This document shows positions 18,125 to 52,731 of a stretch of 64,000 nt of DNA, piece by piece. Location of the stretch: positions 1 to 64,000 of the forward strand of contig CAMVNQ010000001.1 in assembly GCA_947168885.1 (NCBI GenBank), written 5' to 3'. Position numbers and translations under genes: made by a program. Every line of letters starts with the position of its first letter. Within the stretch, counting starts at the first letter, position 1. The notes under the pieces are model-generated. The model made no database searches and was not told the origin of the DNA. It saw only the letters and a list, made by a program, of their open reading frames with translations. The stretch comes from an uncultured Clostridia bacterium. GTDB lineage: Bacteria > Bacillota > Clostridia > Oscillospirales > Ruminococcaceae.

Positions 18125-18202
18125 TTTAAACCTCCGATGCATCAAAGCACGTATTTTGTTTATTATAACATAAAACCGGTACATTTGTAAAGGTTTTTGG
18201 GT

Positions 18203-31139: not shown

Positions 31140-31156
31140 CGGGAAAGGAGCGTTAA

Positions 31157-31660: not shown

Positions 31661-31692
31661 TGCTCCGATAGCAGGGAAAGGACAGTAAAGCA

Positions 31693-32028
31693 ATGCAGAT
31701 AATACCTATGTCGCCGACAATACATACAATAGCGGCTGCCGACAAGCTTTTCGGAAAGACTCATGCCGCTGAAGCTGCGGACGGCGCTTCCGAGGGAAGC
31801 TTAAAGACCGGCACATTCCTCGACGCGCTCACAGGGCTCTGGGATCAGGCTTACGAAGCACAGGCGCAGAAGAGCGAGGATATGATGAAGATAATGCTCG
31901 GCGACACCGACAACCTCGAAGAGATACAGATGAACATAGCAAAAGCAGAGATCTCGACCGAGCTGCTTGTGAATATAAAGAACGCAGTCGTTGACGCTTA
32001 CAACGAGATAATGAGAATGAGCATATAA
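31693..32028 (+). CDS. fliE: Flagellar hook-basal body protein FliE
   Basis: This 111-residue MS-ring/rod junction protein links FliF to the rod and is the first export substrate. The family pattern is in the C-terminal half: a FLDALTGLW helix, then MLGDTDNLEEIQMNIAKAEIS and a final helix with VDAYNEIMRM. AAAGGACA precedes the ATG. It lies between flgC and fliF in the usual order. Confidence 0.93.
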   Translation: MQIIPMSPTIHTIAAADKLFGKTHAAEAADGASEGSLKTGTFLDALTGLWDQAYEAQAQKSEDMMKIMLGDTDNLEEIQMNIAKAEISTELLVNIKNAVVDAYNEIMRMSI

Positions 32029-32050
32029 TGTGTACAAACCGTCCGGAATG

Positions 32051-32083
32051 AAGGAGTGACGTCCCAAACGGGACAAAGTAAGT
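32051..32083 (+). promoter_or_regulatory. fliF ribosome binding site separated by a hairpin
   Basis: The only good Shine-Dalgarno, AAGGAG (32051-32056), is 27 bases from the ATG. Between them GTCCC (32061-32065) and GGGAC (32070-32074) form a hairpin, which if folded shortens the effective spacing to about 13 bases. Confidence 0.45.
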
Positions 32084-33748: not shown

Positions 33749-33787
33749 TGCCCAGTCCGCGGCGATATATGACAGAGTGAGGCATAT

Positions 33788-33970
33788 ATGGACAGAAGAC
33801 CGCAGTATGGCAAGGACGAAGGCTTTGATATAAAAAGCCTTTCGGACGCCAGAAATGATAACACAAAAGACAGTGCTCTCAAAAAAGAGATAAGCGATTA
33901 CTCTAATATGAAGCCCGAAGTCGTTGCACAGCTCATACGTTCGTGGATGAACGGCGACGACAACAAGTGA
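33788..33970 (+). CDS. Free-standing copy of the FliF C-terminal (FliG-binding) tail
   Basis: This 60-residue protein lies between fliF and fliG. Its last 51 residues align without gaps to the last 49 of FliF, with 27 identities; the strongest block is LKKEI-D-S---PE-VAQLIR-WM-GD. In FliF this segment binds the N-terminal domain of FliG. With no membrane span or ring domain, the protein could occupy FliG away from, or in competition with, the MS-ring. The ribosome site is modest (GAGTGAGG). It arose by partial duplication of fliF; conservation of the key residues argues for selection. Confidence 0.85.
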   Translation: MDRRPQYGKDEGFDIKSLSDARNDNTKDSALKKEISDYSNMKPEVVAQLIRSWMNGDDNK

Positions 33971-34041
33971 TGTCGGGCGCGGCAGCGATCCCGCCGCGGA
34001 AAAGTGTATAAAGCGGATCTGATCGAAAGGGGATATTTGCT

Positions 34042-35073
34042 ATGGCTGAGCAGCAGCAGGCACCGCAGAGCGCCAATGATATAAATATGATGCAGAAGGC
34101 GGCTATGGTCATATCCGCTATTGGCTCGGAAAATGCATCGCGTGTGTTCAAGTTCTTCTCGGACGAGGAGATCGAAAAGCTCACGCTTGAAGTCGCGAAA
34201 ATGGACTACTGGCCCGTTGAAGTCGTGACCGATGTTCTCAACGACTTCTATGAGGTCTGCCTTACACAGAAGGTCATTTCAGAAGGCGGTGTGGAATACG
34301 CGCGTGAGATACTCGAAAAGGCATTCGGTCCGCAGGCGGCATCGTCGCTTTTCGACAAGATAACAAAACAGTTAAAATCCAAATCCTTTGCGTTTGTACG
34401 CAAGGCAGACTATAAAAACCTTCTCGCTATCGTACAGAACGAGCACCCGCAGACTATCGCGCTCATTCTTTCCTATGCGCGAAGCGATCAGGCTTCGGCG
34501 ATACTTGCCGAGCTGCCGAAAGAGATGCGTATAGAGGTCGTTGAGCGTATTGCGAAAATGGAGTCCGCATCTCCGGACGTAGTAAAGAGCCTTGAATCCA
34601 CCCTTGAAAAGAAGTTCGCGAATATCGTCACCACCGAGAATATGGAAGTCGGCGGTATCAACTACATAGCCGATGTACTCAACAAAGTCGATCGTTCGAC
34701 CGAAAAGTACATCTTCGACGAGCTCAATCTCCGCGACCCGAAGCTCGCGGACGACATCCGTTCCCGAATGTTCGTATTCGAGGACATCGTCAACCTCGAC
34801 TCCATGTCCATTCAGGCATTCATCACCGAAGTCGATCCGAAGGACCTTGCGGTCGCTATCAAGGGTTCGACCCCAGAAGTCGCGGAAGTCATCTATGCGA
34901 ATATGTCTTCGAGAAACAAAGAATCCACCCAGACCGATGTCGAGTACCTGCATAATGTCCGTATGCGTGATGTCGAAGAGGCACAGCAGCGTATCGTCGC
35001 TATCATACGCCGCCTCGAAGACGAGGGCAAGCTCACGATCTCCAAGGGCGGAGAGGACGAGATCATCGCGTAA
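34042..35073 (+). CDS. fliG: Flagellar motor switch protein FliG
   Basis: This 343-residue rotor protein links FliF to the C-ring and carries the charged torque helix. The N-terminal domain (about 1-110) should bind FliF. The middle domain has EHPQTIALILSY, the classic FliG motif, and the C-terminal motor domain includes LRDPKLADDIRSRMFVFEDI with the charged residues. AAAGGGG precedes the ATG. It is directly downstream of the mini-FliF tail gene. Confidence 0.96.
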   Translation: MAEQQQAPQSANDINMMQKAAMVISAIGSENASRVFKFFSDEEIEKLTLEVAKMDYWPVEVVTDVLNDFYEVCLTQKVISEGGVEYAREILEKAFGPQAASSLFDKITKQLKSKSFAFVRKADYKNLLAIVQNEHPQTIALILSYARSDQASAILAELPKEMRIEVVERIAKMESASPDVVKSLESTLEKKFANIVTTENMEVGGINYIADVLNKVDRSTEKYIFDELNLRDPKLADDIRSRMFVFEDIVNLDSMSIQAFITEVDPKDLAVAIKGSTPEVAEVIYANMSSRNKESTQTDVEYLHNVRMRDVEEAQQRIVAIIRRLEDEGKLTISKGGEDEIIA

Positions 35074-35160
35074 TATTACAGTTTACAGCTTCCCCACTTT
35101 CTGTGCGGGAAGCTGTAAGATACAAGTCACAACTTTCAGGCAAGGGAGGGATAATGTCGA

Positions 35161-36366
35161 ATGGCAGGCAGTGTCATCAAGGGCGGTATCGGCACAGGTT
35201 ATGTATATGTCAACAGCTTTGATACCGATGAACCTGTAATGAAGACCATTTACGGCAAAAGTCCCAATGCCGATAAACTTCAGGAAATATTCTACCGCAA
35301 CGACCGTAACTCGAAAGCGTCTGCGGCAGTTGAAAAGCTTCTCGCGGACAAAAACTCGTCCGGAGGAAGTGCGGAAGGCGGCGAGCCGGAGGAAGGCGAA
35401 TCCGTTTCCGCAGAAGAAGCCCGCATAGAGCGTGAAAAGCTTATTGCGGAATATGAGTCGATAAGAAACAAGTATGAGCGCGAGTCCGAGGAATTCGTTC
35501 TTCGCGCAAGATCGAAAGCTACCGAGATATACGAAAAAACCAAGGAGCTGGCGCAGCAGACCATTCTCGACGCGAGAAGCGAAGCCGAGCAGATACTGAA
35601 CAGCGCCAAGTCCGAAGCCGAGAAGCTGAAAGAGAGCGAAAAGCGTGCCGGACGCGAAGAGGGCGAAAAGCAGGGTTTTGACGAGGGCTATGTCAAGGCG
35701 CTGAAAAAATGCAAGGAAACGCTTGTTGAGCTGAAATCTCTTGCCGAACAGGTCACAGCCGATAAAAACGAACTTATGATGCAGTACGAGCGCCAGCTTT
35801 TCGATACGATCTTCGATATCTGCCAGCGTGTGACCATGGGAGCTCTTGCGCAGAAGGAAAAAGGCATCATCACCCGCATGATACACGAGGCGGGACGAAA
35901 GTACAAGACCAGCAAGAACGTCAAGATAATCCTTTCAAAGCTTGATGTCAGCGAAGAAGCCGAGATCGACGAGCAGCTCCTGAAGGACGTTTTCCGGAAC
36001 TGTGACAACGTTGAGATCGAAATACAGGAAGATGCACCGTCGGGTACTCTTATGATAGACGACGGATCCGAGATAACCGACGCGAGCGTCATGACGCAGT
36101 TGAAAATGGTAGAACAGCTCGGAAAGGGCAAATACCGCGACAAGAACCTGACCGATCTGCTTCAGGAGTCGCAGAACAAGCCCAAGCGCGGCGGCAGACG
36201 CAAAGCGGCGTCAAAGGACGGCAGCGAGGAGCCGTCAGCAAACGCGCTGTCGGATGATGACGACGATACCGTTATACCGGATGTTGTATATGAGACGAAA
36301 AATCCTGCGAGTCTTGATACCGACGAGTCAGAGGACGACATAGAAAAGCAGATGGAAAGAGTATAG
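35161..36366 (+). CDS. fliH: Flagellar assembly protein FliH, extended
   Basis: This 401-residue protein regulates the FliI ATPase and docks it to the export apparatus. A Glu/Lys-rich coiled coil covers about residues 75-185, followed by the FliH/V-ATPase E-like domain (about 190-325). It is much longer than typical FliH (about 230-270) because of an N-terminal extension and a C-terminal tail with a basic patch (KPKRGGRRKAASK) and acidic runs (DDDDD). The stop TAG at 36364-36366 shares its last base with the inserted MITE. The Shine-Dalgarno GGGAGGG is 11-12 bases from the ATG; a closer out-of-frame ATG (35154) is not used. Confidence 0.88.
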   Translation: MAGSVIKGGIGTGYVYVNSFDTDEPVMKTIYGKSPNADKLQEIFYRNDRNSKASAAVEKLLADKNSSGGSAEGGEPEEGESVSAEEARIEREKLIAEYESIRNKYERESEEFVLRARSKATEIYEKTKELAQQTILDARSEAEQILNSAKSEAEKLKESEKRAGREEGEKQGFDEGYVKALKKCKETLVELKSLAEQVTADKNELMMQYERQLFDTIFDICQRVTMGALAQKEKGIITRMIHEAGRKYKTSKNVKIILSKLDVSEEAEIDEQLLKDVFRNCDNVEIEIQEDAPSGTLMIDDGSEITDASVMTQLKMVEQLGKGKYRDKNLTDLLQESQNKPKRGGRRKAASKDGSEEPSANALSDDDDDTVIPDVVYETKNPASLDTDESEDDIEKQMERV

Positions 36367-36522
36367 GGAACCTCTAAAAACTTATTTGAGAGAAAAAGAG
36401 CTACTTGCACCGATAGCTGCGTCAAGCCTCCTCAACGTGCGCCAGCACGCTTTCGGAGTCTCTCCATGCTCTCGGCACAATTATCTCATTTTCTCTTTTC
36501 AAAGCGGTTTTTAGAGGTGCCC
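36366..36522. mobile_element. MITE-like element on the fliH stop codon
   Basis: This 157-bp element has terminal inverted repeats (GGGAACCTCTAAAAAC at the left, GTTTTTAGAGGTGCCC at the right) and flanking TATA duplications at 36362-36365 and 36523-36526. It has no coding capacity. Its first base completes the fliH TAG stop. Its last 50 bases are identical to 1-50 of the window. Confidence 0.88.
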
Positions 36523-36528
36523 TATAAT

Positions 36529-36563
36529 AAAACATATCGCCGCAAACTGCGGCGATATGTTTT
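36529..36563. terminator. Perfect 16-bp hairpin inside the flagellar operon
   Basis: AAAACATATCGCCGCA (36529-36544) and TGCGGCGATATGTTTT (36548-36563) pair perfectly around a 3-base loop, with T-runs on both strands. By form it is a bidirectional terminator, placed between fliH and fliI. Confidence 0.7.
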
Positions 36564-36619
36564 AAATTAAGAATAAACGCGTTCGGATCGCGGTAAAGCC
36601 GTACCGCAATTCATAATTC

Positions 36620-36672
36620 TTAAGGCAATACCGCACAAATAGACGCACGCTCTTTGTGCGGTATTGCCTTAA
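36620..36672. repeat. 20-bp inverted repeat just upstream of fliI
   Basis: The arms at 36620-36639 and 36653-36672 are perfectly complementary (core GGCAATACCGCACAAA) around a 13-base loop. It ends about 20 bases before the fliI start and could be a further small repeat element or a leader structure. Confidence 0.65.
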
Positions 36673-36693
36673 TTCGGGAAAAGGGAGTGTATT

Positions 36694-37998
36694 ATGGACC
36701 TTCGGGGATTCCGTTCAGAGATCAGCGGGTTCGATATGTACCGGTATATGGGTAAGATCGAGAAGATAGTCGGAATGACTATCGAATCGTCCGGACCGGA
36801 ATGTAATATCGGAGACATCTGCCGCATATATTCCAAAGATATGCAGGACTTTATTTACGCAGAGGTCGTAGGATTCCAGTCCGAAAAGGTCCTGCTCATG
36901 CCATATACCGACATTGAGGGTATAGGCCCGGGAAGCATCGTGGACAATACCGGCGATAAGCTCATGGTAAAGACGGGCGACGCTATGATAGGGAGAATAA
37001 TCAACGCTATTGGTGAGCCTATCGACGGCAAGGGCGAGATTAACTATACCGGAAGCATCTCTATCTCCGGTGTTCCGGTAAATCCGCTCACAAGACCGAA
37101 GATCGCGGAGCCCATCGAGCTCGGAGTAAAGGCGATAGACGGCATCCTGACGCTTGGAAAGGGTCAGCGTATAGGTATCTTTGCAGGCTCCGGCGTCGGT
37201 AAATCGACTCTTATGGGTATGATCGCGCGAAAAGTAAAAGCCGACATCAACGTTATCGCGCTGGTCGGCGAGCGTGGCAGAGAAGTCCGTGAGTTCATCG
37301 AGAACGACCTCGGTGATGAGGGAATGGCGCGTTCGGTGGTAGTCGTAGCTACTTCCGACCAGCCGGCTATGATGAGATACAAATGTCCTATGACCGCGAC
37401 GGCTGTCGCCGAATATTTTATGTCACAGGGAAAAGACGTGCTGCTTATGATGGATAACCTGACGCGTTTCGCAATGGCGAACCGAGAGGTCGGGCTTTCT
37501 ATCGGCGAACCGCCTATTGCCCGCGGCTACACCCCGTCGATATATGCACAGATGCCGAAGCTGCTTGAACGTGCGGGCTGCTTTGAAAAGGGCAGTATAA
37601 CCGGCATTTACGCCGTTCTTGTCGAGGGTGATGATACGAACGAACCTATCGCCGATACCGTCCGCGGTATCATCGACGGTCATATCGTTCTTTCAAGAAA
37701 GATAGCCGCCCAGAACCATTATCCCGCTATCGACATTTCCGTCAGTGTTTCACGACTTATGTCTATAATCTGTGACGAGGATCATAAAGCCGCTGCAAGT
37801 AAGCTTCGTAATCTTCAGGCTCTTTATAACTCGAATATCGACCTTATCTCCATAGGTGCGTATAAGGCAGGCACCAACCCGCGCCTTGACGAAGCGATAA
37901 GCAAGATCGACAAGATAAACGGCTTCCTCTGTCAGCGCACAGACGAAAGCTTCTCACTTGAAGAAACTATACGTCTCCTGAAAGAAGCCGTCAATTAA
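36694..37998 (+). CDS. fliI: Flagellum-specific ATPase FliI
   Basis: This 434-residue F1-beta-like ATPase energises flagellar type III export. Walker A is GIFAGSGVGKST (about residues 163-174), Walker B is in VLLMMDNLTRFA (about 249-260), and the family block SIGEPPIARGYTPSIYAQMPKLLERAG follows. AAAAGGGAG precedes the ATG. It is separated from fliH by a 330-base block of mobile and hairpin sequence, so it may be transcribed by read-through or from an unrecognised promoter. Confidence 0.96.
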   Translation: MDLRGFRSEISGFDMYRYMGKIEKIVGMTIESSGPECNIGDICRIYSKDMQDFIYAEVVGFQSEKVLLMPYTDIEGIGPGSIVDNTGDKLMVKTGDAMIGRIINAIGEPIDGKGEINYTGSISISGVPVNPLTRPKIAEPIELGVKAIDGILTLGKGQRIGIFAGSGVGKSTLMGMIARKVKADINVIALVGERGREVREFIENDLGDEGMARSVVVVATSDQPAMMRYKCPMTATAVAEYFMSQGKDVLLMMDNLTRFAMANREVGLSIGEPPIARGYTPSIYAQMPKLLERAGCFEKGSITGIYAVLVEGDDTNEPIADTVRGIIDGHIVLSRKIAAQNHYPAIDISVSVSRLMSIICDEDHKAAASKLRNLQALYNSNIDLISIGAYKAGTNPRLDEAISKIDKINGFLCQRTDESFSLEETIRLLKEAVN

Positions 37999-38284
37999 GC
38001 CGCCTTGGCGCACCTGATGCACAATCCCGGTACTGCTTCGCAATTTATCCGAATCCTTGCGACAGCCAAACACTCGATCTCCGACTATCGAGCCTGTACA
38101 ACGGCAGCAAAGCCGCAGTGCCTGTATATCGCAGAGTTGTGCGGAGAGTGCAGCCGCCGCAGCAGAGATTATAAGTCTGTACAAACTCCGGGCGGCTACT
38201 GCTCGCGGGCGCTCGCCCGCCGCCCGCCGCGCAGGCGAAAAAATCTAAGCGCGGAGCGCTCTTCTCTCAGAAAGGAGGGTCTTT
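37999..38284. repeat. G/C-rich noncoding insert between fliI and fliJ
   Basis: No gene is seen in about 285 bases. G/C-rich hairpins cluster at 38190-38240 (GGGCG/CGCCC type). AGCGCGGAGCGCT (38248-38260) is found again at 56291-56303, in each case shortly before a strong ribosome site. The two inserts look like members of one repeat family. Confidence 0.55.
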
Positions 38285-38740
38285 ATGAAGAAGTTTGTAT
38301 TTACGCTTCAGCGACTGAAAGAATACAGAGAAACGGCTCTCGACACAGAGAAGGGTACGTTGGCGGAGCTGCGCGCGGAGCTTCAGGAAATGGAAGCCGA
38401 GCTTGAGAAGATACTTGAGGACATAGTGCGGCTCAACCGCGAGCTTATGGAGCTGTACCGGAACGGCACTACCGCGAACGATATTGCCGTGCATAAGCGC
38501 TACATCAACAACAAGCAGCAGGAGCTTCACATGAAGCGCCACCAGATACTCATGCAGAACCGTAAGATCGAGCAGCAGCTTGAAGTAGTCATAGAAGCGA
38601 CCAAGGAGGTCTCGAAGCTCGAAAAGCTTGAGGAGCACCAGCTTGACGACTACAAGGCAGCCGAGCAGAAAGAAACCGAGATGTTCATAGAGGAGTTCGT
38701 TTCTAATGCCGACTGGCGGAAATCACATTCGGGTCAATGA
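38285..38740 (+). CDS. fliJ: Flagellar export chaperone FliJ
   Basis: This 151-residue, almost entirely alpha-helical coiled-coil protein resembles the gamma subunit stalk of F1 and works with FliI/FliH and FlhA in export. It starts with the typical MKKFVFTLQRLKEYRETAL and keeps long Glu/Lys/Gln-rich heptads. AAAGGAGG lies 6 bases upstream. It ends in a terminator, so it closes this flagellar block; later genes of the usual operon (fliK, flgD) are not here. Confidence 0.92.
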   Translation: MKKFVFTLQRLKEYRETALDTEKGTLAELRAELQEMEAELEKILEDIVRLNRELMELYRNGTTANDIAVHKRYINNKQQELHMKRHQILMQNRKIEQQLEVVIEATKEVSKLEKLEEHQLDDYKAAEQKETEMFIEEFVSNADWRKSHSGQ

Positions 38741-44247: not shown

Positions 44248-44276
44248 TTGACTTTCAGCGCTTTTTTTGGTAGAAT
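44248..44276 (+). promoter_or_regulatory. Promoter of the ten-gene acyl-carrier operon
   Basis: TTGACT (44248-44253) and TAGAAT (44271-44276) are separated by 17 bases, 52 bases before the first gene. Confidence 0.75.
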
Positions 44277-44327: not shown

Positions 44328-45104
44328 ATGGAAACAGCGGATATCATAAATCGGGCGGCGATGCGGACAGACTTTACAAACTGTATGATACGTCCCGCTG
44401 AGCTTCTTGACGGCATAAAAAACGGGCGTTTCAGCATACTGGACGAAGAAACACTCCTTATTACGGAAAAACGCACTGGATATATTCGCCTTTATTATTT
44501 CCTTACCCCCGGCTGTGTACTTCGCAGAATATCTTTGGAAAGCGAACTGCCTGTATATGCCGATATAACCCTCAGAGGCGAAATAGGCAGCAAAGACGAT
44601 ATATTCAGACAATTAGGATTGATTCCATTCCGAACATATATACGTTTCGGTATGATAAACCGTGCCGAATGTCCGAAACCTGTACACGCCGCAGTCGAAG
44701 CGGATACAGGCGATATTGACGATATATTGGAATTATTATATGGTATGTTCGATCTTATGGCGGATACTCTTCCGGACAGAAACGAGCTTGTCAGAATGAT
44801 AGCAGACGGCAATGTTTATAAGGTTGTGATATTGGGTTGCCTTGCGGGAGTGCTGCTTTATGAGGACACCGGAGTTAAATCGTATCTCCGTGCGCTTGCT
44901 GTTTCGCCGGAATATCGCGGTAAATCTGTTGGGAGTTCGCTTATGTCGCACTATCTGTCTATGCATACGCCTGACAAAACAAAGCGCTTCGAGCTGTGGA
45001 TGGATCAGGAAAATGCGAAGGCATCAGCTCTTTACAGGAAACTCGGGTATACTCCGGATGGGCTGAAGAACTATATATATAGGCGTGGAGGACAGCGGAT
45101 GTGA
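44328..45104 (+). CDS. GNAT family N-acyltransferase
   Basis: This is a 258-residue protein. The C-terminal half is a GNAT acyltransferase: LRALAVSPEYRGKSVGSSL is the acyl-CoA pyrophosphate-binding motif A (about residues 188-206), and NAKASALYRKLGYTPDG is motif B. The N-terminal half (about 1-125) is a second, diverged alpha/beta domain. The donor may be acyl-CoA or an acyl carrier protein, given the carriers in this operon. First gene of the cluster, about 50 bases from the promoter. Its end overlaps the next start (ATGTGA arrangement). The substrate is unknown. Confidence 0.82.
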   Translation: METADIINRAAMRTDFTNCMIRPAELLDGIKNGRFSILDEETLLITEKRTGYIRLYYFLTPGCVLRRISLESELPVYADITLRGEIGSKDDIFRQLGLIPFRTYIRFGMINRAECPKPVHAAVEADTGDIDDILELLYGMFDLMADTLPDRNELVRMIADGNVYKVVILGCLAGVLLYEDTGVKSYLRALAVSPEYRGKSVGSSLMSHYLSMHTPDKTKRFELWMDQENAKASALYRKLGYTPDGLKNYIYRRGGQRM

Positions 45105-45829
45105 AAATAATTGAAGCTGTATGGGAAAAGCGAAACCTCGGTGTTACCTGTGCTGAGATAGAGGTGGAGGGGAACGATTCTCCTGAAGATCTGATGCCTT
45201 TGCTCAGAATGCGCAGCGAACAATATCTTGTGGTGAAAGTTTCGTCTGAAAATTATGCGGCTGTCACGGCTTTGCAAAGAGAGGGGTTTATGTTCATAGA
45301 AAGCCTTATTCAGATAGAAGCTGATCTCAGTAAAGGCGCTATTATTCCGAAACGGTGCCAGCGGCTTTTAAAGAATATGGGGTGGCATAACTCGTCAGAT
45401 GAAGAGACACGGAAGACACTTGAAGTCATACGCGCGGGAAGCATCTTTGCGACAGACAGAATATCCATTGATCCATACTTTTCGCGTGAGCTCGCAGGGC
45501 AAAGATATGCGTACTGGACAGAGGATATTCTTGCTTCGGACAATTCGGAAATGCTGATAACAGAGTATCTTGGAGAGAATGTGGGTTTCGTAGTGATGCA
45601 ACACAGGGAAACGTACAGCTCGCCTGTACTCAACGGGGTCTATCCTGAGTATCTTGGAAGCGGCATGGGTGTTGTAAATTCGTGTTGCACTCAGCTATAT
45701 TTGTTTCAGCGTGGCGTCAAGCGCTCGGTATCGCATATATCTACTAACAACGGCAATATGCTGAATATGGCAGCGCTGTTCCAGAACAGCTTTGGTGATG
45801 TAAAGCATATTCTAATAAAGCATCAATAG
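45101..45829 (+). CDS. GNAT-like acyltransferase (RffC/WecD-like)
   Basis: This 242-residue protein begins with GTG at 45101, overlapping the previous gene by 4 bases. The C-terminal domain resembles GNAT enzymes that acylate nucleotide-linked 4-amino sugars: VGFVVMQ, then LNGVYPEYLGSGMGVVN, then the ISTNNGNMLNMAALF ending. The CoA-binding loop is degenerate compared with Q/RxxGxG/A, reading YLGSGMG. An amino-sugar substrate is an inference that fits the glycosyltransferase at the end of the operon. It could also be a pseudo-enzyme. Confidence 0.65.
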   Translation: MKIIEAVWEKRNLGVTCAEIEVEGNDSPEDLMPLLRMRSEQYLVVKVSSENYAAVTALQREGFMFIESLIQIEADLSKGAIIPKRCQRLLKNMGWHNSSDEETRKTLEVIRAGSIFATDRISIDPYFSRELAGQRYAYWTEDILASDNSEMLITEYLGENVGFVVMQHRETYSSPVLNGVYPEYLGSGMGVVNSCCTQLYLFQRGVKRSVSHISTNNGNMLNMAALFQNSFGDVKHILIKHQ

Positions 45830-45847
45830 CAAACGGAGGTAATCACA

Positions 45848-46066
45848 ATGACAAACGAAAAGAAAATGGAACTTTTGGCAGACATATTTGATGTTGAGGT
45901 GGATGAACTCACATCCGAAACAGAACTCGGTTCTCTTGATATGGATTCAGTCACCGTACTGTCGTTTATTGCGATGATGGATGAGGAATTCGGTAAGGAA
46001 ATCAAGGGCTCCGAAGTCAGAAGTCTTAAAACTATACAGGATATGCTGGATATTATGAAGGAGTAA
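45848..46066 (+). CDS. Acyl carrier protein (first)
   Basis: This 72-residue four-helix carrier has the phosphopantetheine attachment Ser34 in LDMDSVTVL. Strong acidity and the EFGKEI helix are typical. CGGAGGTAA precedes the ATG. It is not the housekeeping AcpP, which carries the DSLDxVE motif. It stands directly before a KAS III gene, so it probably carries the acyl chain made or extended by that enzyme. Confidence 0.9.
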   Translation: MTNEKKMELLADIFDVEVDELTSETELGSLDMDSVTVLSFIAMMDEEFGKEIKGSEVRSLKTIQDMLDIMKE

Positions 46067-46074
46067 TAGGCACC

Positions 46075-47130
46075 ATGCTCAGCAAAAGATTTGAGGGTGT
46101 ACGGATAAGCGGGCTTGCATGCGCTGTTCCAGATAACAAGTTGGTAGCGGACAGCTACAGAGAACGCTTCGGCAATGCTGCTGTCGATAAATTTGTCAGT
46201 GTGACAGGCATAAAACAAAGGTATTCCGCAAAGGAAGGTCAGACCGCTTCTGACCTTTGCTTTGTTGCTGCTGATGCACTTATGAAAAAGAAGGGTCTTA
46301 ACGGAGATGATATAGACGCGCTTATCTTTCTCACGCAGACTCCTGATTATTGCCAGCCTTCAACCGCATTCGTCCTTCATAAAAGGCTTAAAATAAAACA
46401 GGACTGCCTGGTATTTGATATGAATATCGGTTGTTCGGCTTTTATTGTTGGCGTATATACAGCAGCGGGTCTTGTTGAAAGCAAAACTGCCGAGCGCATC
46501 CTTGTCCTTGTCGGAGATGCGGGAACGCTCAGAGATGCTCCGCCTGATGATATTTCCTATAATATGATGTTTGGTGACGGTGGTACGGCAGTTCTTGTCG
46601 AACGCGGAGAAGGTACTATCGATGGGATGGTGCGTTCTGACGGCGAAGGGTTCAATGTTCTCATAGCTCCTGTTCCTGGCTACAGATTTCCGCTTTATGC
46701 CGCAAATGGAGATGACAAGCTCCAGAAAAAGATGGCGGGAGATGACGTGTTTCTTTTCACATTAACTAAAGTACCGAGACTTTTCAAGGAATTTTACAGT
46801 ACTTTTGGCTGTTCGTCCGAGAAGTTCGATTACTATATGCTGCACCAGGCTAATCAGATGATAATCGACCATATTGCTAGGAAACTTAAGCTTCCGAAAG
46901 AAAAGGTACATGTTTCTATTGATAAATACGGTAATACCGACGGTAGCTCTATACCAATTGGTATAGTTGATCTTTGCGAAAGCTTAATGGAGCCGAGAAA
47001 ACTGAAACTTGTTACATCTGGCTTTGGTATAGGTCTGTCATGGGGAGTCATGTCTTTTGAACTTGATAGCGTAGATGTTTTGCCTATGATATTTACTAAC
47101 GACATTTATGAAGAGGGAAGAAATATCTGA
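46075..47130 (+). CDS. Ketoacyl-ACP synthase III-like enzyme (first)
   Basis: This 351-residue thiolase-fold condensing enzyme retains the full KAS III triad: Cys120 (NIGCSAF), His257 (LHQAN) and Asn287 (GNTDGSS). FabH-type enzymes condense a short acyl-CoA with malonyl-ACP, while relatives transfer acyl groups to O or N acceptors. It starts 8 bases after the ACP gene. The cluster context suggests a dedicated short acyl chain, not general fatty-acid synthesis. A stand-alone FabH role is less likely because no fab genes are around. Confidence 0.88.
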   Translation: MLSKRFEGVRISGLACAVPDNKLVADSYRERFGNAAVDKFVSVTGIKQRYSAKEGQTASDLCFVAADALMKKKGLNGDDIDALIFLTQTPDYCQPSTAFVLHKRLKIKQDCLVFDMNIGCSAFIVGVYTAAGLVESKTAERILVLVGDAGTLRDAPPDDISYNMMFGDGGTAVLVERGEGTIDGMVRSDGEGFNVLIAPVPGYRFPLYAANGDDKLQKKMAGDDVFLFTLTKVPRLFKEFYSTFGCSSEKFDYYMLHQANQMIIDHIARKLKLPKEKVHVSIDKYGNTDGSSIPIGIVDLCESLMEPRKLKLVTSGFGIGLSWGVMSFELDSVDVLPMIFTNDIYEEGRNI

Positions 47131-47144
47131 CTGAGGTGATATAT

Positions 47145-47924
47145 ATGTGGAATCCATATGACTTTACTGGCAGAAAAATAGTTGTGACAGGCGCAACGTC
47201 AGGAATAGGCAGAACAACAGCTGTAAAGCTATCAGAACAGGGTGCTAGTATCATGATGATCGGTAGAAATAAGGAAAGTCTTGACGAAACACTGTCAATG
47301 CTCAAAGGTAATGGACATCGTTGTTTTATCAAGGATTTTTCTGAGCCCGGCGGGTACAGGGAGATATTCGATGACATAGTGTCTGACGGTAAGAAAGTGA
47401 ACGGATTTGTTCACAGCGCCGGAATAGCAAAGATACTTCCGATAAATAGCTTAAACTACAGGATAATGAATGAGAGTATGACTATTAATTTCTACTCATT
47501 TGTGGAAATGGTCGGAATTCTTTCAAAGAAAAAATATCATGATAAGACCAGCATTGTCGGGATATCGTCAATAGCAGCAAAGCATCCGGATCAGTGCCAG
47601 AGTCTTTACGCCGCGACCAAATCCGCTATGAATGTATTTGTTACTTCGAGCGCCATTGAGTTGACCAACAAGCAAATAAGAATTAACACCGTTATGCCAG
47701 GCATGACTCGCACACGTATGACAAGCAATTCCAGCGAGCTTTTCCCGGCGGATGATCTCAGGAGGATTATCGGTACTCAGCTTCTTGGAATGAGTGAGCC
47801 GGAAGAAATAGCGGATGTCATAATGTTCCTGCTGTCAGATGCATCACGAGTCATAACCGGCAGAGAAATATACGCTGATGCAGGGACTATACATCATAGC
47901 TCGTGGAAAGGTCGAGAATTATGA
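47145..47924 (+). CDS. Short-chain dehydrogenase/reductase
   Basis: This 259-residue SDR has the NAD(P) motif TGATSGIG (about residues 15-22), SSIAAKHPDQCQSLYAATKS with the catalytic Ser, Tyr and Lys (YxxxK), and PGMTRT. It closely resembles FabG-type 3-oxoacyl-ACP reductases, so it probably reduces the product of the neighbouring condensing enzyme to a 3-hydroxyacyl form. The ATG at 47145 is preferred over the GTG 9 bases upstream because GAGGTGAT is correctly spaced. Its end overlaps the next gene (ATGA). Confidence 0.9.
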   Translation: MWNPYDFTGRKIVVTGATSGIGRTTAVKLSEQGASIMMIGRNKESLDETLSMLKGNGHRCFIKDFSEPGGYREIFDDIVSDGKKVNGFVHSAGIAKILPINSLNYRIMNESMTINFYSFVEMVGILSKKKYHDKTSIVGISSIAAKHPDQCQSLYAATKSAMNVFVTSSAIELTNKQIRINTVMPGMTRTRMTSNSSELFPADDLRRIIGTQLLGMSEPEEIADVIMFLLSDASRVITGREIYADAGTIHHSSWKGREL

Positions 47925-48775
47925 GCGTAGTTTTCAGAGACAGCGATAGGAACAACTTCGGCTTGTTCGAAATAAAATCGGCTCTTTACGATGTCGGAGC
48001 ACATGACTGTGACATTCTTTTTATTCATTCCGATATAATGTTCGGTCAGCCTGTTGGTGCTTTCAAAAAGCGTGAGTACCTTGATGAGCTTTACAATGTG
48101 ATCGAGGAGCTTGGCGTGAAAATTATAGTTCCTACATTTACATTTAGCTTCTGCAATCACGAGGACTATGATATACAAAACAGCCGCACCTCAATGGGTG
48201 CTTTCAACGATTATGTCAGAAAGCTTGAGGGGAGATACCGCACAGAAGATCCACTTCTTTCGGTATCTGTTCCTGCCAGTCTTGAAGAGAAGTATACATG
48301 CTGCGGCGATAATTCACTTGGATATAACAGTGCTCTCGATGTATTGCACCGCACTGACGGAGTGAAATTCCTTTTTATGGGAGCCGAAATGGCAGACTGT
48401 TTCACTTACGTACATTACGTCGAAAAATCTTTGGATGTACCGTATCGATTTGATATGCCATTCGAAGGAAATATCATTTATCAGGACGGAAGAAAAGTTC
48501 ACAAGACGCAGTATATACATACCCAATGCTCGGGCGTAAAATTACTGCCAAAATATTTACATTTTGAAAAGGAAATGGAGGAAAAGGGGTATCTCCGAAA
48601 AAAGCGTGTCGGAGATAAATACGTTTCCTGCATTTCTGAAAAATACGCTTACAATGAAATAAAAAAGCATTTAGAGGAAAACATATTCTATTTTCTTGCC
48701 GAGCCATATAAGGATACCGATCTTGTTCACCGCTACACATACAGCACGGATAACGGCAGGATAACACATTGTTAA
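47921..48775 (+). CDS. AAC(3)-fold acyltransferase
   Basis: This 284-residue protein is related to aminoglycoside 3-N-acetyltransferases. It shows the D-LFIHSDI start, IIVPTFTFSF, the SRTSMGAFNDYVRKLEGRYRTEDPLLSVS block and a FMGAEMADCFTYVHYVE region with the catalytic His. Members in sugar-modification clusters acylate amino groups on sugars rather than drugs. Here the acyl donor could be an acyl-ACP from the same operon. It overlaps the SDR stop by 4 bases. Antibiotic resistance is not implied by this context. Confidence 0.82.
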   Translation: MSVVFRDSDRNNFGLFEIKSALYDVGAHDCDILFIHSDIMFGQPVGAFKKREYLDELYNVIEELGVKIIVPTFTFSFCNHEDYDIQNSRTSMGAFNDYVRKLEGRYRTEDPLLSVSVPASLEEKYTCCGDNSLGYNSALDVLHRTDGVKFLFMGAEMADCFTYVHYVEKSLDVPYRFDMPFEGNIIYQDGRKVHKTQYIHTQCSGVKLLPKYLHFEKEMEEKGYLRKKRVGDKYVSCISEKYAYNEIKKHLEENIFYFLAEPYKDTDLVHRYTYSTDNGRITHC

Positions 48776-48788
48776 GGAGATTGATCGA

Positions 48789-50315
48789 ATGAGGATCACG
48801 TTTCTTGACTATTTTGAAAAAACAGTATTGGAAAAGACTTCTCTTTGCGCAGTCATACATAATGATAAAGCCATTACATTCGGAGAGCTTCGTGAAAGAG
48901 CCCTTTGGTTCGCTATGCGCGTTGCCGAGACTGTCAACAGTGCGGTCAACAGTCCAATAGCGGTCTTTCTTCCTAAAGAGATAGACACTGTTGCGGCGGA
49001 CATCGGCATAATGTATGCAGCCGCACCTTTTATGAATCTTGATGTTAAGACACCGAAAGAACGCATAAGCAACATATTGGAAAGGGTTCGTCCTGCTGCG
49101 GTCATAACGAGCAGAAAATTTGCTGAAGTGTTTGGCAGTGTTGAGATACCTGTTATTTTTACCGATGACGATAATACTGAGATTGCACCTGATACTCAAA
49201 TGCTTGAGCGTCGCCGAAGCAAACTGATAGATACCGACCCTTTCTGTATCATCAACACGTCAGGTTCGACAGGTACTCCGAAAGGTGTAGTGCTTAATCA
49301 CAGGAGCTTCTTTGACTTTGTCGATGTATCGGACGAAATATTCGGTTTTGATGGTTCGGAGATAATTGGCTCACTGTCGCCGGTCGTATTTGATATTTTC
49401 GATTTTGAGCTTTGTATGCTGATGAAGCACGGTTCAAGACTAATTATCCTTGATGCGATGCTCGGAGCCTTTCCGGCGAGACTCCTCGAAAATCTCGTGA
49501 AAACAAACGTTAGTTTTATTTTTTGGGTGCCGTCAATAATGGTGAATATTGCGAACATGGGACTTCTAGACAAGATAAAGCTTCCCGATCTTAAGCTTGT
49601 ATGGTTCGCCGGGGAGGTGTTCCCGACAAAGCAGTTCCTTATATGGTATGACAGTCTTTCACATACGAAATTCGCAAACCTTTATGGCCCTATAGAAATA
49701 ACTCTTGACTGCACATATTACATTATTGATCGGAGACCGTCGGAAACAGAGACATTGCCTATAGGTGTCCCTTATCGAAACACCGATATATTGATACTCA
49801 ACGAAAACAACGAACGCTGCAAGGTCGGCGAAGATGGTGAGCTGTGTGTACGCGGCACATCACTTGCTATGGGTTATTATAATCTTCCTGAGAAGACTTC
49901 CACCGCGTTTGTTCAGAATCCACTTAACAGTGCTTATCCCGAAATGATATACCGCACAGGAGATGTTGTGTATATGCGCGATGACGGCGTAATAATGTTC
50001 AAAGGGCGCAAGGACACTCTGATAAAACACATGGGCTACCGCATCGAACTTGGAGAGATAGAGCATATCATTGAAAATGATCTTAGAATCATAAAGTACT
50101 GTTGCGCGGTATATGACCGTGGAAAGAAAGAGATTGTTCTGTTCTACGAGAATGACCGAGAAATCTCAGTACAGGAATTCAGAAAGGCGATAAGCAGTCG
50201 ACTGCCATCGTATATGATACCGGCAGTATTCATAAAAGTGGAAGAGATGCCGCGCAATACCAACGGAAAAATAGACAGACTTCTGCTGAGTAGCAGGGTT
50301 AACGGAGAAAAATGA
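48789..50315 (+). CDS. Amino acid adenylation enzyme (DltA-like)
   Basis: This 508-residue stand-alone adenylate-forming enzyme shows core motifs TSGSTGTPKG (157-166), an FDIFDF A4 motif with the Asp that usually contacts an amino group, NLYGPIEITLDC, ELCVRGTSLAMGYY, YRTGD, GYRIELGEIE and the C-terminal NGKIDR Lys. The size and absence of fused domains match DltA, which loads D-alanine on a carrier. The carrier here is probably the 77-residue ACP overlapping its end by 4 bases. The amino acid is not predictable. AAGGAG precedes the ATG. Confidence 0.9.
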   Translation: MRITFLDYFEKTVLEKTSLCAVIHNDKAITFGELRERALWFAMRVAETVNSAVNSPIAVFLPKEIDTVAADIGIMYAAAPFMNLDVKTPKERISNILERVRPAAVITSRKFAEVFGSVEIPVIFTDDDNTEIAPDTQMLERRRSKLIDTDPFCIINTSGSTGTPKGVVLNHRSFFDFVDVSDEIFGFDGSEIIGSLSPVVFDIFDFELCMLMKHGSRLIILDAMLGAFPARLLENLVKTNVSFIFWVPSIMVNIANMGLLDKIKLPDLKLVWFAGEVFPTKQFLIWYDSLSHTKFANLYGPIEITLDCTYYIIDRRPSETETLPIGVPYRNTDILILNENNERCKVGEDGELCVRGTSLAMGYYNLPEKTSTAFVQNPLNSAYPEMIYRTGDVVYMRDDGVIMFKGRKDTLIKHMGYRIELGEIEHIIENDLRIIKYCCAVYDRGKKEIVLFYENDREISVQEFRKAISSRLPSYMIPAVFIKVEEMPRNTNGKIDRLLLSSRVNGEK

Positions 50316-50545
50316 TGAACGAACAGATATTGGATATGCTGAAAGAGCTACGACCCGAATATGATTTTGAAACGAGTGTTGATTTTGTTATGGATGGGCT
50401 TCTCGATTCCTTTGATATCGTATCTATCTGTGGGATGCTTGAAGAAACGTATGGTATAAAGATAGACGGTCTTGATATAGTTCCCGAAAACTTCTCTTCG
50501 GTAGCGGCTATAAGATCTCTGGTTGAAAAAAGTCTCGGAAAGTAA
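50312..50545 (+). CDS. Acyl/peptidyl carrier protein (second)
   Basis: This 77-residue carrier has the attachment Ser33 in DGLLDSFDIV, the motif style of DltC and peptidyl carriers. It overlaps the adenylation gene (ATGATG with the TGA stop), the usual arrangement for an A-enzyme and its carrier, and it is followed by the second KAS III gene. GGAGAAAA precedes the start. It probably carries the aminoacyl group. Confidence 0.9.
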   Translation: MMNEQILDMLKELRPEYDFETSVDFVMDGLLDSFDIVSICGMLEETYGIKIDGLDIVPENFSSVAAIRSLVEKSLGK

Positions 50546-50555
50546 GGACAGTCTT

Positions 50556-51620
50556 ATGATAACGGAATTCAAAGGAAAAAAAATAACCTCTATGCTCGGC
50601 ATCTTGCCAGAGAATACCGTGCTCTTCGACGACGAGGTATCAAACTATTCTTTTCCTCCGAATCAGACCATGAGGTTAAAAAAACTCATGGGTTATGACC
50701 GCCATCGGCTGACTAAAGAAACTACCACCGTTTCAGATCTCGCAGTATATGGCATGAAGTATATTCTGGATAATGGCTGGATATCTGCTGATGATATCGG
50801 TGTTATTATCACTGTAACGCTTTGTCCCGACCATTTCGTTCCTCACATCGGAAATATCGTGCAGGCGAAATGTGGTCTTGGATGTGATGTTATAAGTCTT
50901 GATATAGCACAGGGTTGCTGCGGATTTCTTGTCGGACTTGCGCAGGCGTTCATGATGCTTGAGCACACCGACAAAAAAGTGGTTCTCATCAATGGTGATG
51001 TGCTGAGTCATAAGGTCTCAAAGCGTGACAGGAACGACTTTCCGCTTATAGGAGACGGCGCGGCAATAACAATAATCGAGAATGCTGAAAGCAAAAACAT
51101 ATATTATGAGATGCACAACGACGGTTTACGTGGCGATGTACTGAAAATACCGGCAGGCGGTTTCCGTATGCCGTCAACACCCGAAACAGCTAAAATGACA
51201 GATCAGGGTGATGGTAATTTTCGCTCGCTTGACCAGATGCACATGAATGGCAGTGATGTTTTTACTTTTGTACAGACTGAAGTGCCGTCGATGATAGCAG
51301 AAGCGTTTATCCGAGAGCACAAAAACATTGATGATTTCGACCGCTTTCTGTTTCACCAGCCTAACAGGTTCATGCTCCAGAAGCTCGCGGATAAGGTCGG
51401 CATTCCATATGACAAAATGCCTATGGATCTCGTCGAGAAATGTGGAAATCCCAGCGGAGCATCCATACCGCTCACGGCAATACTTAATTGTCGTGATGAA
51501 TTGCTTTCGCGCGAACTGAAATGTTGTTTATCGGCATTTGGCTCGGGCCTTGCGTGGGGGCTGATGTTTATTGATATAGGCGCTCTCGAAAATTGTGAAA
51601 TGATAGAGGCGCCGCTGTAA
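50556..51620 (+). CDS. Ketoacyl-ACP synthase III-like enzyme (second)
   Basis: This 354-residue KAS III homologue, clearly diverged from the first, keeps Cys121 (AQGCCGF), His267 (FHQPN) and Asn298 (GNPSGAS). The N-terminal 45 residues differ from FabH and contain a FPPNQTMRLKKLMGYD segment. The ATG at 50556 follows AAGGACA; the longer frame from 50523 is rejected. It could join the aminoacyl group on the second carrier with a malonyl or acyl unit, or act as an acyltransferase. Two complete KAS III enzymes in one operon is unusual. Confidence 0.87.
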   Translation: MITEFKGKKITSMLGILPENTVLFDDEVSNYSFPPNQTMRLKKLMGYDRHRLTKETTTVSDLAVYGMKYILDNGWISADDIGVIITVTLCPDHFVPHIGNIVQAKCGLGCDVISLDIAQGCCGFLVGLAQAFMMLEHTDKKVVLINGDVLSHKVSKRDRNDFPLIGDGAAITIIENAESKNIYYEMHNDGLRGDVLKIPAGGFRMPSTPETAKMTDQGDGNFRSLDQMHMNGSDVFTFVQTEVPSMIAEAFIREHKNIDDFDRFLFHQPNRFMLQKLADKVGIPYDKMPMDLVEKCGNPSGASIPLTAILNCRDELLSRELKCCLSAFGSGLAWGLMFIDIGALENCEMIEAPL

Positions 51621-51648
51621 TAAATACTTTTCTTAGTAGGCAGAAAAA

Positions 51649-52620
51649 ATGAAAGATAAAAAGCTTATTTCATTTGTGATACCATGTTACCGCTCAGAAC
51701 TGACTATCGCAAACGTAATAGATGAAATAATCGAAACTGTTGAGCAGGACGGCAGATACGACTATGAGATAATCTGCGTAAACGACGCATCGCCTGACGG
51801 TACGCTCTCTGTGCTGAATGATATTGCCGACAAAAACAAAAACGTCGTGGTTATCGACCTTATGAGAAATTTTGGGCAACATTCCGCAATCATGGCAGGA
51901 TTCAACTATGTGTCGGGGGACATAGTCGTACATCTTGACGACGATGGACAAACACCGCCAAAAGAGATGTTCAGACTTATAGACAAGCTGAATGAGGGCT
52001 ATGACCTTGTGGGTGCAAGATATCCCAAAAAGAAAGAATCTCTTTTCAGGCTGTTCGGTTCGTGGACCGCACGTGTAGTTGGGCGCATCCTTATTAATCC
52101 GCCCAAAAATGTTCAGCTCAACAGCTACTGTGCGGCTACTCGGGCGGTTATAGATGAGATAGTAAAATATAAGAACGCCTATCCGTATATTCAGGGTCTC
52201 GAACTTCGTGTGACGCGGAATGTTACGGATGTTGAGGTTAACCACAAAGCCCGTGAGATAGGAAAATCAGGCTATAGCTTTGCAAAGCTGTTTTCTCTGT
52301 GGATGAACCAGTTCACGGGGTTTTCGGAAAAGCCTTTACGGCTGTCGGCATATATAGGGCTCATATCGGCGCTTGTTGGATTTGTGTTCGGCGTGATAGT
52401 TGTCATACGGCGACTGCTCAATCCCGACATGCCAATGGGTTACAGTTCGATAATGGCGGTTATGCTGTTTATGTTCGGTGTTGTGTTCCTTATGCTTGGG
52501 CTGCTCGGGGAATATATCGGAAAGATATATATGTGTATTAACAATTCCCCGCAGTTCGCGATAAGATCGATCAAAAACAAGGATAAGAAGAAAGAAAGCA
52601 TCGACAGAGATGTTGTATAA
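51649..52620 (+). CDS. Polyprenyl-phosphate glycosyltransferase (GT2, GtrB/DPM1-like)
   Basis: This 323-residue enzyme has a cytoplasmic GT2 domain with VNDASPDGT (about residues 44-52) and the metal motif HLDDDGQTPP (about 93-102). Two C-terminal membrane spans follow (about 235-257 and 270-292). This architecture makes polyprenyl-phosphate-linked sugars for surface glycan decoration outside the membrane. As last gene of the operon it suggests the acylated product is a sugar passed to a lipid carrier. No flippase or acceptor transferase is in the window. Confidence 0.9.
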   Translation: MKDKKLISFVIPCYRSELTIANVIDEIIETVEQDGRYDYEIICVNDASPDGTLSVLNDIADKNKNVVVIDLMRNFGQHSAIMAGFNYVSGDIVVHLDDDGQTPPKEMFRLIDKLNEGYDLVGARYPKKKESLFRLFGSWTARVVGRILINPPKNVQLNSYCAATRAVIDEIVKYKNAYPYIQGLELRVTRNVTDVEVNHKAREIGKSGYSFAKLFSLWMNQFTGFSEKPLRLSAYIGLISALVGFVFGVIVVIRRLLNPDMPMGYSSIMAVMLFMFGVVFLMLGLLGEYIGKIYMCINNSPQFAIRSIKNKDKKKESIDRDVV

Positions 52621-52695: not shown

Positions 52696-52731
52696 AATCG
52701 CACAAGCTTAAAGGCTTGTGCGATTATTTAG
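52696..52731 (+). terminator. Terminator of the ten-gene operon
   Basis: AATCGCACAAGC (52696-52707) pairs perfectly with GCTTGTGCGATT (52714-52725), followed by ATTTAGT. Confidence 0.8.

Follow-up and report, generated by a model that had tools for sequence, protein, structure and literature searches.

An operon of ten genes in a Clostridia genome of gut type is part of a widespread, exchangeable cassette that appears to supply surface amino sugars with amino-acid-derived side groups

We found that the operon studied here, ten genes long and from a gut-type Clostridia genome, is one instance of a widespread, exchangeable gene cassette. Its enzymes appear to assemble a side group derived from an amino acid while that group sits on carrier proteins, and to pass it to an amino sugar destined for the cell surface. 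In the reading that we favour, with a probability of roughly 45%, an aminoacyl group on the second carrier (ACP2) would be capped on its nitrogen, extended by the ketosynthase KAS III-2 with malonyl, reduced, moved to the 4-amine of dTDP-Fuc4N (dTDP-4-amino-4,6-dideoxygalactose), transferred to polyprenyl phosphate and, finally, flipped to the outside. The interpretation given in a preliminary description of this DNA was partly supported.

Gene content and layout of the operon

The ten ORFs of the preliminary description were all present, with none interrupted, in the window (the whole analysed stretch of 64,000 nucleotides), and Pfam and NCBIfam gave the order GNAT, WecD-like, carrier, KAS III, SDR, AAC(3)-fold, adenylation, carrier, KAS III and GT2 (Table 1). 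For SDR, AAC(3) and KAS III-2, the likely starts are listed, which differ by small shifts from the longest ORFs. The tight spacing, the Cys-His-Asn triad of both KAS III enzymes and the two membrane spans of the GT2, all claimed before, were confirmed: 7 of the 9 junctions overlap or span 15 bases or fewer (gaps of -4, 18, 8, 14, -4, 13, -4, 10 and 28), both triads are intact, and two hydrophobic spans were found. As for the one promoter claimed, a putative site was detected; however, such sites are as frequent in shuffled sequence (27 matches in the window versus 22.6, sd 5.0), so that a single promoter for the operon is plausible only. The terminator scan total was also near chance (9 versus 7.5, sd 2.3), and an Rfam scan of the window yielded four tRNAs.

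Table 1. Features of the operon and its flanks in window coordinates
Feature	Description	Position	Strand	Evidence
Promoter site	sigma-70-like, TTGACT-17-TAGAAT	44248..44276	+	consensus scan, 10/12 matches
GNATa	tandem GNAT, would cap the aminoacyl carrier with an N-acyl group	44328..45104	+	
WecD-type	N-acyltransferase, proposed final transfer to sugar 4-amine	45101..45829	+	
ACP1	acyl carrier protein	45848..46066	+	PF00550 5.7e-9; DS serine kept
KAS III-1	ketosynthase	46075..47130	+	PF08545/PF08541; Cys-His-Asn kept
SDR	FabG-like reductase	47145..47924	+	PF13561 5.7e-43
AAC(3)	AAC(3)-fold acyltransferase	47921..48775	+	PF02522 8.1e-20
AMP	stand-alone adenylation enzyme for amino acids, pocket code DIFFWALLDK	48789..50315	+	PF00501 1.9e-52; TIGR01733 5.3e-91
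ACP2	carrier paired with adenylation enzyme	50312..50545	+	PF00550 0.0011, DltC/AmcB-like
KAS III-2	group-defining ketosynthase	50556..51620	+	PF08541 1.7e-17; Cys-His-Asn kept
GT2	ArnC/PgfS-like, putative synthase of a polyprenyl-phosphate sugar, with two C-terminal membrane spans	51649..52620	+	PRK10714 6.1e-60, below cut-off
Terminator-like	hairpin, 13 pairs	52696..52725	+	consensus scan

The adenylation enzyme (AMP) had been called DltA-like, which did not hold, as it fell far under the cut-offs of both DltA models (249 of 476 bits for PRK04813 and 238 of 560 bits for TIGR01734), and so did its relative in locus L060; DltA-type D-alanylation was rejected on these scores. With TIGR01733, AMP reached 305.5 bits, just under the cut-off of 317.4, and the L060 relative 343.3 bits. 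Its pocket code was derived from the alignment, and we know of no specificity that matches it. The A-domain Asp235 is retained in the window AMP and in 78 of 88 aligned rows (hits above 300 bits, window included). Each carrier has the serine of the DS motif, and ACP2 matched its Pfam family with 19.7 bits, slightly short of the gathering score (20.8).

Among the transferases, the GT2 scored 202.9 of the 529 bits of the ArnC equivalog. The WecD-type protein has the WecD fold by the fold test, and scored 38 bits against the cut-off of 219 of the WecD equivalog (an NCBIfam match only); both models, GNATa included, were judged from VIA-align lists alone, and families absent from those lists may also apply. 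Single-sequence search at E 0.001 returned no solved relatives of the AAC(3) and WecD-like proteins.

Both ketosynthases scored below the cut-off of the housekeeping FabH model TIGR00747 (136.2 bits for KAS III-2 and 171.8 for KAS III-1, against 292.1), and the top NCBIfam model for KAS III-2 was PRK12880, which we take to be Campylobacter FabH. The FabH residues Trp32, Arg36 and Arg249, whose functional roles are known, are changed, and Arg151 is kept in KAS III-2. Among KAS III-2 relatives (hits above 200 bits), Cys-His-Asn is retained in 84/84, the Trp32 and Arg249 positions are altered in the same 84, and the Arg151 position is Arg in 79. For the control loci, 17 of 28 supplied a frame for the residue count. 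Since this Arg is kept, and since KAS III-1 likewise lacks Trp32 (0/23), the FabH-residue argument on KAS III-2 is partial.

Co-inheritance of the module and the matching sugar locus

The analysis covered 80 loci, the best among 167 confirmed relatives. KAS III-2 served to choose them, and they also supplied the sequences for the family profiles, with odd-length members excluded. A contig scan that used the window KAS III-2 as its only query gave no relative, whereas an eight-sequence alignment did find relatives. AMP and ACP2 occur together with KAS III-2 in 74 of the 80 loci (six ACP2 genes were recovered only by a stop-to-stop rescan), which bears out the earlier remark that the adenylation enzyme comes with a carrier of its own next to a KAS III; the homologues are thus co-inherited rather than scattered. 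AMP was missing from L092, L122 and L133, the last also without ACP2, where short contigs hide genes, while L103, L112 and L119 have a diverged ligase only and no ACP2. Because the same gene neighbourhoods recur in other genomes, a chance origin of the operon is untenable, and a one-off cluster was rejected.

The rest of the module varies. SDR was found in 58/80 loci, and AAC(3) comes after it in 22 of the 24 loci that bear AAC(3). A recognised sugar N-acyltransferase is present in 52 loci and absent from 28, 8 of which have AAC(3); 15 of the 80 have no recognised cap enzyme. WecE/DegT-type aminotransferases were found in 31/80 loci, the WecE and PglD profiles picking up distant kin as well, and WbaP-like bacterial sugar transferases in 17/80, one of which was checked (L035:10503-11135, PF02397). 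Flanks reached up to 10 kb for module loci and 1.5 kb for control loci. ATP-grasp relatives, searched with three queries only, occur in 5/80 loci; such ligases adjoin the module in L107, L120 and L125 and lie near it in L076. In L114 and L115 the three queries found no relative, and AccD/AccA lie 4.6 kb and 6.3 kb upstream of AMP, respectively; a ninth AccD match, in L085 (30% over 179 residues), was left uncounted. The module is also exchanged. Plasmid searches gave one close relative, from Paenibacillus cellulosilyticus, the others being at most 31.9% identical among the matches listed, and relatives of the module in Helicobacter labetoulli (L077) showed 60% KAS III-2 identity.

A matching sugar locus is present in the genome. 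Its WecE gene (C1:272178, outside the window) scored 576.3 bits, above the equivalog cut-off of 375, and the sugar-nucleotide, flippase and YfhO genes are located elsewhere in the genome, out of reach of the preliminary description. Among 40 congeners, KAS III-2 was found in 1 and WecE in 7; in G1064 and G1076 WecE is present but no close ArnC, and in G1051 the situation is the opposite. Identity is only 46-47% for three of the 7 WecE copies. One copy, in G1058, adjoins an NDP-hexose 2,3-dehydratase and so probably serves another sugar.

A flagellin gene (18314-19942) and FliB lie in the window, and flagellin had been suggested as the target. Two of the six module-carrying genomes (G044 and G943) gave no flagellin match in the same search; flagellin as an obligate target was therefore rejected, and as a target it is possible, if unproven.

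Proposed pathway and its alternatives

Whereas the gene set, its joint inheritance and exchange, the catalytic residues and the sugar locus are observed, we infer the chemistry throughout, the sequence of the reactions, the amino acid used and the final acceptor. AMP would activate a small alpha-amino acid and load it on ACP2, and GNATa would acetylate its amine. In a putative C-C bond step, KAS III-2 would then join the capped aminoacyl-ACP2 with malonyl-ACP1 to give a gamma-amino-beta-ketoacyl-ACP1. SDR would reduce this product, which KAS III-1 might elongate or tailor, as might the AAC(3)-fold enzyme. The WecD-type enzyme would place the acyl group on dTDP-Fuc4N (from RmlA, RmlB and WecE), the ArnC-like GT2 would transfer the sugar to polyprenyl phosphate, an ArnE/ArnF-like pair would flip it, and a YfhO-type enzyme would link it to a surface polymer or protein. 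Several of the results weigh against this reading: the choice of loci via KAS III-2, the retained Arg151 of KAS III-2 and the loss of Trp32 in KAS III-1 too, the ATP-grasp ligases, the distance of AccD/AccA from AMP in L114 and L115, the AMP score and its unmatched code, the loci with no recognised cap enzyme or sugar N-acyltransferase, the uneven occurrence of KAS III-2, WecE and ArnC among congeners, and the known amide-coupled N-acyl groups. The earlier proposal, in which an acyl or aminoacyl group bound to a carrier is meant for a lipid-linked amino sugar, is supported. On a broader scale, and with the odds somewhat against it, such free-standing peptide/polyketide hybrid cassettes may span phyla, with a KAS III primed by an aminoacyl-carrier to yield statine-like gamma-amino-beta-hydroxyacyl groups on surface-glycan amino sugars, and with several pocket codes and exchangeable caps and transferases.

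An unlikely alternative is that an amide is formed, which the ATP-grasp ligases beside or near some modules could make. Here the KAS III enzymes, ACP1 and SDR would produce 3-hydroxybutyryl-ACP1 from acetyl-CoA and malonyl, and GNATa, AAC(3) or, in some loci, the ATP-grasp enzyme would join the acyl to the amino-acid amine, so that an N-(3-hydroxyacyl)-aminoacyl group reaches the sugar; where SDR is lacking, an N-acetoacetyl-aminoacyl group could cyclise to a 5-oxoprolyl group. Such amide-coupled products are known, as passages of PMC10609480 include 5-oxoprolyl derivatives and, for E. coli O123, N-[(S)-3-hydroxybutyryl]-D-alanyl, with no gamma-amino-beta-hydroxyacyl group among the N-acyl groups in those passages, and for Proteus vulgaris O4 a 4-amino sugar that bears N-[(R)-3-hydroxybutyryl]-L-alanyl is reported (a title cited in PMC8074265). 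The frequency of SDR and the retained Arg151 of KAS III-2 also fit an amide; on the other hand, Trp32 and Arg249 are lost throughout KAS III-2, and L114 and L115 lack ATP-grasp relatives by the three queries.

It is quite improbable that KAS III-2 merely hands the ACP2-bound aminoacyl group over to ACP1, from which an N-acyltransferase would take it to the sugar. CloN2/CouN2 of aminocoumarin biosynthesis, thought to shuttle pyrrolyl groups between carriers, are the model for this, and the smallest modules show the same series of parts, from ligase and carrier through KAS III to a second carrier and a sugar acyltransferase. However, the invariant triad, and AccD/AccA or FabD in clusters where no other ketosynthase was found, fit decarboxylative condensation, and the SDRs of those 58 loci would be left without a clear substrate. 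It is very improbable that the operon yields a small molecule, secreted or kept inside the cell, of the short nonribosomal peptide/polyketide kind and with no tie to surface sugars: AMP has its best solved relative in an NRPS domain of linear gramicidin synthase, but the operon contains WecD-type and ArnC-like genes, and the module loci carry the N-acyltransferases, aminotransferases and WbaP-like transferases counted above.

If the pathway that extends a capped aminoacyl group is correct, many gut, rumen, soil and marine bacteria would decorate their surface sugars with amino-acid-derived side groups by a modular route. The small adenylation/carrier/KAS set would offer a simple model for peptide-polyketide joining, and the variation in pocket codes, caps and transferases, readable from genomes, would make the chemistry of unseen glycan groups predictable and testable.

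Comparison with known systems

Among the papers listed in our search of the open-licence literature, none dealt with an adenylation/carrier/KAS triad for surface sugars, which is weak evidence of absence. The Campylobacter jejuni flagellin region Cj1298-Cj1308 encodes carriers, FabH2 and an N-acetyltransferase together with an "amino acid activating enzyme", a parts list like that of the operon. The CloN4-N5-N2-N1-N7 set of clorobiocin and coumermycin comprises a ligase, a carrier, a KAS III, a second carrier and acyl transfer to a deoxysugar; it serves antibiotic tailoring and its CloN2 is thought to be a transferase, whereas KAS III-2 has the full condensing triad. ArnC/ArnE/ArnF/ArnT (aminoarabinose) and WecD/WecE (enterobacterial common antigen) provide a 4-amino sugar, its N-acylation, a polyprenyl-phosphate sugar and a small flippase pair; in contrast, our operon would use a dTDP-Fuc4N route, YfhO in place of ArnT and a carrier-built acyl group.

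The viosamine island of Pseudomonas syringae joins sugar and acyl genes in one island for modified viosamine on flagellin, and the start of its abstract mentions no adenylation arm (PMC3927599). The operon had been described as unlike any cluster that could be named; related clusters do exist, and the closest characterised cassette, by the relevant passages of PMC6519341, is wfpC-wfpG of the Flavobacterium psychrophilum O-antigen R1 genes. These encode two 3-ketoacyl-ACP synthases, an ACP, a ketoacyl reductase and a PglD-type acyltransferase, which are predicted to place a 3,5-dihydroxyhexanoyl group, itself established by NMR, on the 4-amine of Qui2NAc4N. Our operon differs in its adenylation enzyme, second carrier, cap acyltransferase and ArnC-like GT2, none of which is named in those passages (PMC6519341). 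Compared by composition only, KAS, ACP, reductase and sugar N-acyltransferase are all present in the operon, as in a cassette of the wfpC-G type.

Operon layout and a co-inherited gene set

All ten genes of the operon share one orientation, in the order tandem GNAT (GNATa), WecD-type enzyme (a proposed sugar N-acyltransferase), carrier ACP1, KAS III-1, SDR, AAC(3)-fold acyltransferase, free-standing amino-acid adenylation enzyme (AMP), its paired carrier ACP2, KAS III-2 and an ArnC/PgfS-like GT2 (a proposed polyprenyl-phosphate sugar synthase). Seven of the nine junctions overlap or are ≤15 bases apart, in agreement with the tight operon of the preliminary description, and the two membrane spans it had assigned to the GT2 are present as hydrophobic spans. 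The operon has a GC content of 43.6%, versus 49.0% for the remaining window, and is followed by a terminator-like hairpin of 13 pairs; overall, the totals of the promoter and terminator scans were near chance. It is likely, with a probability of about 0.8, that the operon serves to acylate a surface sugar and includes an arm that handles an amino acid.

Strong relatives of KAS III-2 were rare in the whole-genome samples, being found only in the own genome among 40 of the genus, in the own and two others among 297 of the family (E < 1e-100), and, own genome included, in 2 of 394 genomes of the order and 5 of 398 of the phylum. A search with an eight-sequence KAS III-2 alignment recovered 167 relatives in named genomes, many of them metagenome bins, and the best 80 of the 167, which were studied here, belong to Bacillota, Bacteroidota, Acidobacteriota, Pseudomonadota, Verrucomicrobiota, Spirochaetota, Fibrobacterota, Synergistota, Campylobacterota, Actinomycetota and Myxococcota. 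The operon is thus a member of a family and not a one-off. KAS III-2 is set apart from KAS III-1 and FabH by a 100/100 branch; since the spread is patchy and the GC content low, horizontal gain of the cassette is suggested, of which the tree by itself is no proof.

With profiles built from the 80 loci themselves, AMP was detected in 77 and ACP2 in 70 (76 after a stop-to-stop rescan). The preliminary description had considered that homologues might be scattered and not co-inherited; AMP, ACP2 and KAS III-2 were found all together in 74 of the 80 loci. Of 27 FabH-type control loci with short flanks, 21 had FabD and 16 an SDR, and neither AMP nor ACP2 was detected in any of them.

The pocket code of the window AMP, DIFFWALLDK, is shared by 18 of 88 rows, while other classes read DNLFLALVDK (20), DILFFALVDK (8) and DIQYMGVVNK (5), and Asp235 is present in 78. 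Judged from sequence, these discrete classes suggest discrete substrates. As its pocket residues are bulky, a small amino acid is suggested for the window enzyme by general pocket-reading rules. Three adjacent adenylation enzymes in Helicobacter labetoulli each have a different code, and the adenylation gene of another genome (G737) is broken by a DDE transposase gene.

Among accessory enzymes, an AAC(3)-fold gene is present in 24 loci and follows an SDR in 22 of them; where two SDRs are adjacent, as in 22 loci, no more than 5 have it. An MBL-fold protein, perhaps a thioesterase, accompanies the KAS III-2 gene set (the module) in 26 of the 80 loci (e.g. L089, L094 and L095); the top NCBIfam match of the L089 protein, below cut-off, is hydroxyacylglutathione hydrolase.

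Locations of the operon and associated features (window positions unless a locus or contig is named)
Feature	Location	Strand	Remark
Ten-gene operon	44328-52620
FliB flagellin lysine-N-methylase / flagellin pair	16880-18184 and 18314-19942	(-)	FliB 135 bits vs cut-off 85
GT2 adjoining flagellin and FliB	15482-16870	(-)	frames 16436-16870 (the only one covered by the family check), 16152-16409, 15720-16136, 15482-15745
Flagellar basal body/export operon	30666-38740	(+)	rod proteins, FliF, FliG, FliI-type ATPase, FliJ, FliH-like (just under Pfam cut-off)
Sugar locus (L054)	G000:C1:270571-276310
ATP-grasp ligase	L107:5719-6747		adjoins PglD
ATP-grasp ligase	L120:11952-13283		adjoins PglD
ATP-grasp ligase	L125:11984-13282		adjoins PglD
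ATP-grasp ligase	L076:412-1374		upstream
Three adenylation enzymes, H. labetoulli	L077:12887-17928	(-)
Broken adenylation gene, G737	L050:394-3669
FliB-like reading beside a flagellin match, contig C4	L053:6140-7327		no Pfam match

A probable sugar route at a separate locus

No sugar-nucleotide genes were found inside the operon. The same contig has a sugar locus (L054) with RmlA (over its cut-off), an ArnE-like small membrane protein (below the ArnE cut-off), an EamA/ArnF-like one (over the Pfam EamA cut-off only), the sugar 4-aminotransferase type WecE (576 bits vs cut-off 375) and YfhO; RmlB lies on a different contig, and the genome has three YfhO genes. Eight module loci (L058, L059, L066, L073, L074, L075, L079 and L137), all with ArnC, ArnE and ArnF by profile, carry a WecE that is 60-63% identical to that of L054, above the 23-49% seen in the other loci with a WecE match.

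Among 40 congeners, 7 have WecE, 6 have a close relative of ArnC (partial in one case) and 5 have both (p 1.8e-4; 8.7e-4 without the own genome, and 8.2e-3 without the partial ArnC too), the two genes being adjacent in two congeners. Three of these congener WecE copies reach an identity of just 46-47%, and in G1058 one is accompanied by an NDP-hexose 2,3-dehydratase, so the sugar may be a different one there. Another congener, G1052, shows the same split, with RmlA-ArnE-ArnF-WecE-YfhO at one site and ArnC with a WecD-like gene at another (L147), beside LuxE, LuxC, SDR and thiamine-diphosphate (TPP) enzyme genes; no KAS III-2 match was found in this genome, and L147 seems to supply the same sugar route with another kind of acyl cassette. 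Given this split and the co-occurrence, the WecD and ArnC genes seem to move together with WecE, and the acyl genes to be exchanged.

Carbon-carbon or amide bond

Cys-His-Asn is kept in all 84 KAS III-2 copies, and all 84 have lost both Trp32 and Arg249 of FabH, which contact CoA and ACP; 13 of 17 control rows have both, and the remaining four are without the active-site Cys. However, Arg151 is retained in 79 of the 84 and KAS III-1 is also without Trp32, which speaks against KAS III-2 having simply lost CoA binding.

AccD/AccA pairs or fusions were found in 8 of the 80 loci and FabD in 7, KAS III-1 being also present in none and one of these, respectively. The order in Trichococcus (L120 and L125) is AccD, AccA, AMP, ACP2, KAS III-2, ACP1, PglD, and AccD/AccA lie upstream of AMP by 4.6 kb in L114 and 6.3 kb in L115. 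Mainly because no ketosynthase other than KAS III-2 was found in these four loci, we prefer a condensation with malonyl. The chance that KAS III-2 performs an aminoacyl-primed C-C condensation is about even. These loci do not fix its primer, since ATP-grasp ligases beside or near the module in L107, L120, L125 and L076 could instead couple 3-hydroxybutyryl to the amino acid as an amide; two of three checked have a PylC-like N-terminal domain, and the ATP-grasp queries found no relatives in L114 and L115. This alternative is kept alive by known groups, as N-(3-hydroxybutyryl)-D-alanyl and 5-oxoprolyl are among the N-acyl groups given in PMC10609480, and a reference title in PMC8074265 names N-(3-hydroxybutyryl)-L-alanyl for Proteus vulgaris O4.

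Possible acceptors and known systems

The window also holds flagellin, FliB and a flagellar operon, and six flagellin matches lie on the contig of the G928 module. Flagellin, suggested earlier, is a possible target but not an obligate one, since G044 and G943 carry the module with no flagellin match. Downstream of the module in G044 stand a bacterial sugar transferase (PF02397) and, by our reading, glycosyltransferases. YfhO proteins have been associated with teichoic acid and with protein glycosylation. The GT2 beside flagellin and FliB is split over several frames, so that it looks decayed, and is possibly a former flagellin glycosyltransferase; contig C4 has two additional flagellin matches.

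We take the Campylobacter Cj1298-1308 region as a comparison for the cassette, and CloN2/CouN2 as one for its KAS III. The preliminary description had found the operon unlike any cluster it could name, but related clusters exist, with wfpC-G of F. psychrophilum (PMC6519341) as the nearest characterised idea: the predicted role of its two ketoacyl synthases, ACP, reductase and PglD-type transferase is to attach 3,5-dihydroxyhexanoyl to a 4-amino sugar.
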